Origin: Marivirga atlantica
GTDB lineage: Bacteria > Bacteroidota > Bacteroidia > Cytophagales > Cyclobacteriaceae
NCBI RefSeq assembly: GCF_016734805.1
Contig: NZ_JAERQG010000001.1
Span: 62,001 to 126,000, forward strand
DNA: 64,000 nt
Direction: 5' to 3'
A model generated the notes under the pieces. It searched no databases, had not been told where the DNA came from, and worked only from the letters and a program-made list of their open reading frames with translations. Position numbers and translations under genes: made by a program. Positions within the stretch are counted from its first letter, which is position 1; each line of letters begins with the position of its first letter. Below, piece by piece: positions 25,917 through 26,960 of the stretch.

Positions 25917-26378
25917 TTATTTAATTGACAAAGGTCGATTGATGCTTTCTTCCAAAGATATAAAAGTCTCTGTTCTTTCAATCCCTTCAATAGGCTGGAT
26001 TTTATCGTGTAATATGTTTTTCAGGTGGTCTGTATCCTTACAAACTATTTTCACAAACATGGAATAAGCTCCCGTGGTATAATGACAGTCCACAATTTCA
26101 GGAATGGCCTTCAAAGCAGTTACCACATTATCATACAAAGAACTTTTCTGTAAGTAGACTCCCAGAAATGCCGTGATATCCATACCGAGCTTACTCAGAT
26201 CAACCTGAAGCTGTGCCTGCTTAATAATACCCAGCTTTTCCATTTTACGCATTCTCACATGCACTGTGCCTGGTGAAACAAACACTTCTTCAGCAATTTC
26301 AGTATAGGGCCTTCGGGCATCATGCATCAGTATATTGAGGATGGCTAAATCCGTATTATCAAGTTGATAATTTTCCAT
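25917..26378 (-). CDS. Lrp/AsnC family transcriptional regulator
   Basis: 153 residues. An N-terminal winged helix-turn-helix (LDNTDLAILNILMHDARRPYTEIAEEVFVSPGTVHVRMRKME) is followed by the RAM/AsnC ligand domain from about residue 65, with VDCHYTTGAYSMFVKIVCKD near 95. Such regulators form octamers and sense amino acids or related metabolites. It is two bases upstream of the unknown membrane protein and lgt on the same strand, so it may head that transcript. On the other side it faces the tandem tRNA-like RNAs across a shared control region. Confidence 0.92.
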   Translation of the reverse strand: MENYQLDNTDLAILNILMHDARRPYTEIAEEVFVSPGTVHVRMRKMEKLGIIKQAQLQVDLSKLGMDITAFLGVYLQKSSLYDNVVTALKAIPEIVDCHYTTGAYSMFVKIVCKDTDHLKNILHDKIQPIEGIERTETFISLEESINRPLSIK

Positions 26379-26490: not shown

Positions 26491-26498
26491 TACCTTTG
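26491..26498 (+). promoter_or_regulatory. Candidate -7 box for the tandem tRNA-like RNAs
   Basis: TACCTTTG matches TAnnTTTG and lies 89 bases before the first tRNA-like RNA. The -33 region is only a weak match. A second match, TAATTTTG at 26582-26589, overlaps the predicted 5' end of the first RNA, so the true start is uncertain. Confidence 0.4.
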
Positions 26499-26507
26499 AA
26501 ATATCAG

Positions 26508-26533
26508 AACAGCAAAAAGTGCTGTTTTTATTT
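26508..26533 (+). terminator. Terminator-like hairpin between promoter and first tRNA-like RNA
   Basis: A perfect 7-bp stem (AACAGCA/TGCTGTT) with loop AAAAG is followed by TTTATTT, directly downstream of the TACCTTTG box. If transcription starts at that box this hairpin would act as an early terminator or attenuator. Confidence 0.5.
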
Positions 26534-26587: not shown

Positions 26588-26749
26588 TGTAGGGTGATGA
26601 AACTGGCAGACATGCCCTCCTATCTCGGGGGTGAAGGTTCAGGATAAACTCTGACACACTCACGATAAGTTATTTTGCTTTTGTTTAATTGCTTATCGTG
26701 AAGTCAGAGCTAACTACTTCGTGGAGGTTCGAATCCTCCCCCTACAGCA
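26588..26749 (+). ncRNA. tRNA-like RNA copy 1 with a giant variable arm
   Basis: A complete class II cloverleaf can be drawn. Acceptor stem TGTAGGG pairs with CCCTACA (26588-26594 and 26740-26746). U8 and a D arm very like tRNA-Leu (stem ATG/CAT, loop with GGCAGA) follow. The anticodon stem is CCCTC/GGGGG with loop CTATCTC (26620-26626, apparent anticodon AUC), and the T arm is GGAGG TTCGAAT CCTCC. N73 is G and no CCA is encoded. The variable region (26632-26722, 91 nt) is far beyond the usual 10-24. It forms stacked helices GAAG/CTTC, CTCTGAC/GTCAGAG and CACGATAAG/CTTATCGTG with a 22-nt apical loop. I know of no standard tRNA like this. Confidence 0.75.
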
Positions 26750-26767
26750 ATTTATTTGGATTAATAT

Positions 26768-26925
26768 TGTGAGGTGATGAAATTGGCAGACATGCCCTCC
26801 TATCTCGGGGGTGGAGGTTCAGGATAAACTCTGGCGCACTCACGATAAGTTAAGACATAGCCCTTAAGTTATCGTGATGTCGGAGCTAACTACTTCGTGG
26901 AGGTTCGAATCCTCCCCTCACAGCA
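26768..26925 (+). ncRNA. tRNA-like RNA copy 2 with a giant variable arm
   Basis: A second copy 18 bases after the first. The acceptor changes to TGTGAGG/CCTCACA (26768-26774 and 26916-26922), a fully compensated set of substitutions. The D arm, anticodon arm, T arm and internal loops of the variable arm are nearly identical to copy 1. The outer variable helix becomes GGAG/CTTC and the middle one CTCTGGC/GTCGGAG, both still paired through G-U. The apical helix is longer (CACGATAAGTTAAG against CTTAAGTTATCGTG, one G-G mismatch, 8-nt loop). The differences keep the base pairs, which argues for a selected RNA structure. The same AUC anticodon is present. Confidence 0.75.
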
Positions 26926-26930
26926 AACAA

Positions 26931-26960
26931 AAAGAGACTGAGCAATCAGTCTCTTTTTTA
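26931..26960 (+). terminator. Intrinsic terminator after the tandem tRNA-like RNAs
   Basis: A 10-bp stem AAAGAGACTG/CAGTCTCTTT with a 6-nt loop and a T-run, 5 bases after copy 2. It indicates a single short transcript carrying both RNAs. The gene-free stretch 26379-27007 is fully accounted for by these RNAs and their signals. Confidence 0.85.

Follow-up and report, generated by a model that had tools for sequence, protein, structure and literature searches.

The window, a 64,000-nucleotide stretch of the Marivirga atlantica genome, contains two tandem tRNA-like RNA genes on the forward strand, with a putative promoter box upstream, an intrinsic terminator downstream and a regulator gene transcribed divergently from them (Table 1). 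In each copy U8 is present, the acceptor stem has 7 bp, the D stem 3 bp and the anticodon and T stems 5 bp apiece; the D arm includes GG, the anticodon loop is 7 nt long and the T arm carries TTCGAAT. Both genes end in G73 C74. A preliminary description of this DNA had reported complete tRNA cores with variable regions of 91 and 87 nt, and our counts agree. The stacked arm helices and conserved internal loop that it proposed are present in the core-constrained fold, in which GGATAAA lies opposite CTAAC, and the 5' strand of that loop can be refined to G-N-A-N-A-A-A. Without the constraint, the minimum-energy folds of the two copies come out 3.3 and 5.6 kcal/mol lower, with a different D/anticodon region and, for copy 2, a different base of the arm as well.

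Table 1. Features of the tRNA-like RNA locus, in window coordinates.
Feature	Coordinates	Strand	Basis
AsnC-type Lrp-family regulator, divergent from the RNA genes	25917..26378	-	
Putative -7 promoter box TACCTTTG, Bacteroidota TAnnTTTG type, about 97 nt 5' of copy 1	26491..26498	+	sequence
Small hairpin ACAGCA-AAAAG-TGCTGT between promoter box and copy 1, in what is presumed to be the 5' leader	26509..26525	+	sequence
Copy 1, tRNA-like RNA, 161 nt, T1 to G73-C74	26588..26748	+	sequence, alignment, constrained fold
Copy 1 anticodon loop CTATCTC, positions 32-38 (34-36 = AUC)	26620..26626	+	
Copy 1 variable region, 91 nt: 4-bp proximal helix, asymmetric internal loop, distal hairpin	26632..26722	+	
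Copy 1 variable-arm internal loop, conserved 5' strand GGATAAA (family G-N-A-N-A-A-A)	26642..26648	+	
Copy 1 variable-arm internal loop, conserved 3' strand CTAAC	26710..26714	+	
Copy 2, tRNA-like RNA, 157 nt	26768..26924	+	sequence, alignment, constrained fold
Copy 2 anticodon loop CTATCTC	26800..26806	+	
Copy 2 variable region, 87 nt	26812..26898	+	
Intrinsic terminator 3' of copy 2: 12-bp stem and T run	26930..26959	+	sequence

ARAGORN, a check proposed in the preliminary description, detected no tRNA in the window and missed both copies. In Rfam 15 no family reached the curated threshold and none that fits appeared at E<=10, so the known non-tRNA family that the same description had allowed for did not appear. 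An intron within the variable region was considered and rejected: there was no Rfam match, and ARAGORN with introns allowed returned only inconsistent calls. The leader hairpin is followed by a T run and could be a processing or attenuation element.

Of 29 genomes compared at the DNA level, that of the window among them, 24 contain a match at E<=0.001. Across 28 aligned copies, 99.6% of the cells in 24 core pairs are able to pair, and 9 of the 24 pairs change on both sides. None of 500 shuffles of these 28 sequences matched the observed pairing, the double-change counts or the covariation score, while 17 of 500 reached the observed number of further pair types. Given the matches in relatives and a covariation that beats the shuffles, the window copies are not a product of chance. 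U8, A14, A15 with U48, G18 G19 and TTCGA are conserved throughout the alignment.

A covariance model of the family, in line with another check of the preliminary description, matched 270 of 291 genomes of the Cytophagales order; all of the weak matches that we inspected (L246, L248, L250) proved to be tRNA-Leu genes. Strong matches (E<1e-14) occur in at least 218 of the 291 by a hand count of the table, a lower bound in that contig ends truncate at least four true copies (G032, G139, G179, G211). Many of the genomes with no strong hit are of 0.7-1.9 Mb. In a sample of the phylum, 41 of 395 genomes have a match at E<=1e-13, three of them from another class, and a pattern scan returned at least 119 loci in Cytophagales, Saprospiraceae, Chitinophaga and some Flavobacteriales. 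Searches of plasmid and phage collections for the RNA gave zero matches. The RNA loci that we analysed in their surroundings contain arrays of 1 to 5 copies, and single copies range in total length from 108 to 200 nt among 253 distinct ones. Instead of standing alone, the window pair thus has tandem homologues in related genomes, which, together with the Rfam result, bears out the earlier suggestion of undescribed non-canonical tRNAs or tRNA-mimicking RNAs. No description of such an RNA was found in the open-access literature that we searched, and the term 'tRNA-like' is absent from the main text of one survey of 104 motifs (PMC2864571). This is a genuine, unregistered and widespread tRNA family, found in most of the Cytophagales genomes sampled and also elsewhere in Bacteroidota. 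Because Rfam 15 lacks it and ARAGORN overlooks its long form, annotation probably skips it.

At the base of the variable arm is a 4-bp helix that covaries in the 28 aligned copies. Past this helix, the 5' strand usually runs 5-7 nt and then G-N-A-N-A-A-A, and the facing strand carries CTAAC in 212 of 231 parsed copies (22 of the 253 were unparsed). The distal segment measures 14-82 nt, and its first and last five bases are fully paired in 27% of 222 copies versus 0.7% of shuffles. Outside the internal loop, much of the arm varies between lineages. In five genomes of one genus (g39) the arm is gone, leaving a 77-nt cloverleaf with another anticodon stem and the same CTATCTC loop; these armless forms retain U1-A72 and G73-C74 and are typed as tRNA-Asp(atc) by ARAGORN. 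Some lineages can thus do without the arm, but not without the loop.

Several other features of the arm were seen by the way. The apical sequence GGGUUGACCAC is conserved in several families (L272, L274, L275, L278-L280, L282-L287, L294), with GGGUCGACCAC in its place in the arms of L275 and L284; GGUUGACC/GGUCGACC is self-complementary, making loop-loop dimers conceivable. A short palindrome resembling a REP-type repeat, TCCCGAT..ATCGGGA, is inserted in some variable arms, among the unparsed copies; another like it splits a tRNA-Asp-like remnant that immediately precedes the canonical tRNA-Asp gene in the window's own genome (L309). By eye, the anticodon loop of the window copies looks able to pair with the GGATAAA strand; such pairs would be disrupted by the G33 and A33 variants, and we do not claim them.

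The genes are built and bounded like those of tRNAs. A terminal GC, the N73-C74 gene end, is found in 253 of 253 distinct copies, and 31 of the 33 canonical tRNA genes of the same genome (L212-L237) likewise end at N73-C74 without CA, CCA being encoded only in Arg-tcg and Asn. Throughout the family, -7 boxes of the form TAnnTTTG are concentrated about 38-50 nt before first copies. Of 168 last copies, 68 are followed by a terminator within 100 nt; shuffled sequences gave none, and upstream regions 2 in 167. The tRNA core, the N73-C74 end and the family's own promoters and terminators point to a true tRNA-derived family and, judged by their sequence, the genes are stand-alone, tRNA-gene-like transcription units.

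The promoters differ from those of canonical tRNAs, which are C-rich at the start, whereas the start region of the RNA genes is AT-rich. Among RNA promoters with a -7 box, position -19 is A in 48 of 50 that are linked and 45 of 58 that are unlinked (with the RNA gene beside or away from the AsnC-type regulator), against 16 of 36 canonical tRNA promoters; ATCA follows the -7 box in 29 of 50 linked and 39 of 58 unlinked promoters, against 4 of 36 canonical ones. The AT-rich start region predicts regulation different from that of ordinary tRNAs, with a possible link to stringent control.

We considered whether the RNA replaces a missing decoding tRNA, and rejected this, the 33 canonical tRNAs of the genome including tRNA-Asp and two tRNA-Glu. 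Ile-GAT and Ala-TGC are not among the 33, possibly for reasons of assembly. The canonical tRNA-Asp has the loop CTGTCAC and G73.

The anticodon loop was examined in 152 distinct copies from 92 loci that had been gathered without any loop pattern; the pattern scan that yielded at least 119 loci fixes T35, C36 and C38, so that loop counts including those loci are partly by construction. U35, C36 and C38 are found in all 152 copies, across 11 anticodon-stem sequences. At position 34, 126 copies have G, 23 A and 3 C, both window copies having A34, and position 37 is T in 139, C in 10, G in 3 and A in none. U33 is lost in 21 of the 152 copies; the window copies keep it and have U37. The combination expected of a decoding elongator, U33 with a purine at 37, is thus not that of the family. 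With U35, C36 and C38 invariant while 33, 34 and 37 vary, the pattern fits recognition by a synthetase better than the reading of codons, and the RNA is probably aminoacylated and very probably not used for decoding. A specialised decoding tRNA, reading Asp (or GAN) codons under particular conditions, is quite improbable. The NUC-like loop, the tRNA-like gene end and the tRNA-Asp(atc) typing of the 77-nt forms would suit such a tRNA, but the lack of A37 in any copy and the losses of U33 would not; the drift of position 34 among G, A and C would mix Asp and Glu codons, and the genome already has a canonical tRNA-Asp.

Which synthetase might recognize the RNA can be asked of the ends as well as the loop. 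The script that gathered the 152 copies fixed T1, G2 and the final GC, hence end counts were taken from a separate mismatch-tolerant scan without forced ends. Among the resulting 253 distinct copies, 251 have U1-A72 and all 253 have G73; position 10 is A in 149, T in 91 and G in 13. The 11-24 pair is U-A in 27 and U-G in 1 of the 28 aligned copies. According to PMC9976931, bacterial Asp identity comprises G73, G10, G34, U35, C36 and C38 together with G1-C72 and G2-C71, resting mainly on G73, G34, U35, C36 and C38, with G1-C72 crucial. The family has G73, G2-C71, U35, C36 and C38, and G34 in most copies (126 of 152); it lacks G10 in all but 13 of 253 copies and carries U1-A72 instead of G1-C72. 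The U1-A72 pair is described as a specificity signal for GatCAB (PMC9976931, PMC4206432), and by this mark 251 of 253 copies have the signal of a GatCAB substrate. Among the 33 canonical tRNAs of the genome, U1-A72 occurs only in tRNA-Asn and tRNA-Gln; compared with the same 33, the D arm of the RNA is nearest to tRNA-Leu(UAA) and its anticodon arm to tRNA-Asp. A mix of Asp elements with U1-A72 is what would be expected of an RNA charged with aspartate and then amidated, and U1-A72 may at the same time weaken charging by AspRS.

The same positions can be read in favor of serine, with SerRS charging the RNA through its large arm and G73. Bacterial Ser identity as given in PMC9976931 includes G73, G2-C71, R4-Y69 and a large variable region, all of which fit. 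C72 and C11-G24 do not: A72 is found in at least 251 of 253 copies, and the D stem has U11-A24. Seryl identity would also leave the conservation of the anticodon loop unexplained and would have to accommodate 77-nt forms without the large arm, and we regard it as very improbable.

The neighboring regulator scores 166.5 bits over its full length against the NCBIfam AsnC model (next, LrpA at 77), and we call it AsnC-type rather than AsnC because this falls under the equivalog cut-off of 227 bits. Its best match among solved structures is E. coli AsnC, with 63 of 149 residues identical in a gapless alignment. In 91 of 185 loci the RNA has a divergent Lrp-family gene as its neighbor, at 35-272 bp when measured to the open frame; 73 loci with at least 1 kb upstream are without it, 20 have too little sequence and 1 falls elsewhere. 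These 185 loci contain repeated places, and when each of the 173 distinct places is counted once the regulator is divergent beside the RNA in 85, missing in 70 and elsewhere in 1, the sequence being too short in 17. In a separate set that includes the other class, the two genes are adjacent in 17 of 26 loci, 6 of the 26 being longer stretches of places counted before. A dyad search for the regulator's operator gave mostly promoter elements, and we claim no operator motif.

Adjacency is not needed for the two genes to occur together. In a survey of 54 genomes, a copy of the regulator at 54% identity or more was found in 32 of 32 RNA-positive genomes, in 22 of which it lies far from the RNA by its coordinates, versus 2 of 22 RNA-negative ones. 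The two exceptions, G346 and G354, have neither the RNA beside the gene nor GatB; of the other RNA-negative genomes, 7 have distant matches only (best 42-46%) and 13 none at E<=1e-20. Genomes were picked by hand from the covariance-model result lists, RNA-negative meaning no hit of the model in one survey or none at E<=1e-13 in the phylum sample; weak hits of the former survey in the RNA-negative G325, G327, G367, G381 and G437 were assumed to be tRNA-Leu, uninspected.

Certain neighbors recur, as named by eye. Away from the regulator, the RNA is repeatedly found between RluD-like and large AsmA-like genes (L022, L050, L100 and others). The regulator-RNA pair is often near SufB/SufC-like and acyl-CoA-ligase-like genes (L020, L027, L029, L031), and in G013 (L301) the regulator and the acyl-CoA-ligase-like gene stay together while the RNA is elsewhere.

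The presence of GatCAB was judged by GatB (PF02934), which occurs in 28 of 28 RNA-positive versus 8 of 21 RNA-negative genomes. Fisher values are 7e-13 for the regulator and 8e-7 for GatB, both computed as though the genomes were unrelated and thus overstating their independence. Within family f56, G381 is without RNA, regulator and GatB, and the four kin tested have all three; within f61, G531 has RNA and GatB and G346 has neither. The surveys of PF00152, GatB and TIGR01536 covered 48 or 49 genomes: G250, G265, G282, G249, G173 and G405 are out of these sets, and the window's own genome was added for GatB and TIGR01536.

Homologues of asparagine synthetase (TIGR01536, over cut-off) occur in 27 of 28 RNA-positive genomes, G711 being without, and in 19 of 21 RNA-negative ones; the idea that RNA-positive genomes do without asparagine synthetase is unsupported, as is an exclusive role of the RNA in making asparagine. 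TIGR01536 is a broad model; among the matches listed, a form of 528-578 residues in two or three pieces occurs only in six RNA-negative, GatB-less genomes (G346, G370, G437, G467, G495, G327), an observation on which we do not lean. A dedicated Asp-type class IIb synthetase was likewise discarded, since 45 of 48 genomes have 3 copies of PF00152, whether or not they have the RNA. According to PMC4206432, 18 genera, in clades including Bacteroidetes, have AsnRS, GlnRS and GatCAB without asparagine synthetase, and tRNA-Asn is considered the GatCAB substrate there. In the RNA-positive genomes, GatCAB might be retained for Gln-tRNA rather than for the RNA.

Taking these results together, we tentatively favor, at somewhat less than an even chance, a non-decoding tRNA on which AspRS would load aspartate and GatCAB would convert it to asparagine, with an asparagine-sensing regulator in control; on this view the two window copies belong to an old Bacteroidota family of non-decoding tRNAs. 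The transcript would be processed like a tRNA and completed to CCA, then aspartylated by AspRS through G73, U35, C36 and C38. GatCAB would amidate the bound aspartate to asparagine, using the U1-A72 pair that it needs and that tRNA-Asp does not have. The off-norm loop and giant arm would keep the product off the ribosome, so that asparagine would not be misread at Asp codons, and the AsnC-type regulator, presumably an asparagine sensor, would adjust the supply. On this reading the RNA would be a tRNA reserved for use as an asparagine cofactor or sensor. Core covariation, the invariant loop, U1-A72 with G73, and the co-occurrence of regulator and GatB support this Asp-to-Asn reading; against it stand the rarity of G10, A34 in the window copies and the replacement of G1-C72, the commonness of asparagine synthetase homologues, the 8 of 21 RNA-negative genomes with GatB, the lack of a class IIb synthetase difference, and a regulator that is missing beside the RNA in 70 of 173 places and scores under the AsnC cut-off. 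An aspartyl/asparaginyl tRNA working with GatCAB and the AsnC-type regulator is plausible on these grounds, its last step being conjectural. The wider proposition, that Bacteroidota make asparagine on a dedicated non-decoding tRNA carrying AspRS signals and U1-A72 for GatCAB, insulated by loop and arm and under asparagine-sensing control, is slightly more doubtful.

Two other roles would also keep the RNA out of decoding. As a regulatory mimic, it would bind AspRS and/or the AsnC-type regulator as a sensor or decoy, reporting aspartate/asparagine status without being a metabolic cofactor. Linkage to and co-occurrence with the regulator, a promoter start unlike that of canonical tRNA genes and the elaborate arm are what one would expect of such an RNA, which by itself accounts neither for the near-invariant U1-A72 nor for the co-occurrence with GatB; the arm, moreover, is lost in some relatives, and much of it outside the internal loop differs between lineages. 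This is unlikely, though it deserves to be kept in mind. As a donor, Asp-RNA (or Asn-RNA) would serve a transferase that takes aminoacyl groups from tRNA and uses them on lipid, cell wall or protein, a role to which a non-decoding loop with synthetase-type determinants and arrays of 1 to 5 copies would be suited. No transferase recurs as a neighbor, the recurrent genes being the SufB-, acyl-CoA-ligase-, RluD- and AsmA-like ones named by eye, and we consider the donor role improbable.

If the Asp-to-Asn reading is right, this would be a tRNA whose job is metabolism rather than translation, and tRNA-dependent asparagine synthesis would be possible with an ordinary, discriminating AspRS. An RNA that is charged but non-decoding would join the very few tRNAs that work outside translation. 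Amidation by GatCAB would help to explain why the enzyme is kept in Bacteroidetes genera that have both AsnRS and GlnRS, a question raised in PMC4206432. RNA, regulator and enzyme form a directly testable trio.

Among known systems, tmRNA shares a tRNA-like core joined to extra RNA, and is ruled out since the window has no match to Rfam RF00023 and a separate tmRNA gene lies elsewhere in the genome. The family has in common with tRNA-Sec, allo-tRNAs and selC* tRNA-Cys that it is a non-canonical, long-armed bacterial tRNA (PMC7609411). Those RNAs have longer acceptor and anticodon stems, whereas here the acceptor is 7 bp and the T and anticodon stems 5 bp each, with no Rfam match. As to class II tRNAs (Leu, Ser, Tyr), the family has a D arm closest to that of tRNA-Leu(UAA), and its model weakly cross-hits tRNA-Leu genes; it has G73 where the tRNA-Leu of its own genome has A73. 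Class II variable regions reach about 24 nt. Those of the window copies, at 87-91 nt, also contain a conserved internal loop. The lower limit for class II is given as 10 nt in PMC7609411. Bacterial tRNA-Asp shares with the family the loop C-U-N-U-C-x-C of most copies, G73, G2-C71 and the N73-C74 gene end, and is set apart by the family's Leu-type D arm, U1-A72 in place of G1-C72, lack of A37 and giant variable arm. From tRNA-Asn and tRNA-Gln, the substrates of GatCAB, the family differs in having neither anticodon and a loop of non-decoding type; it shares with them the U1-A72 pair, and GatB is present in all 28 RNA-positive genomes tested.
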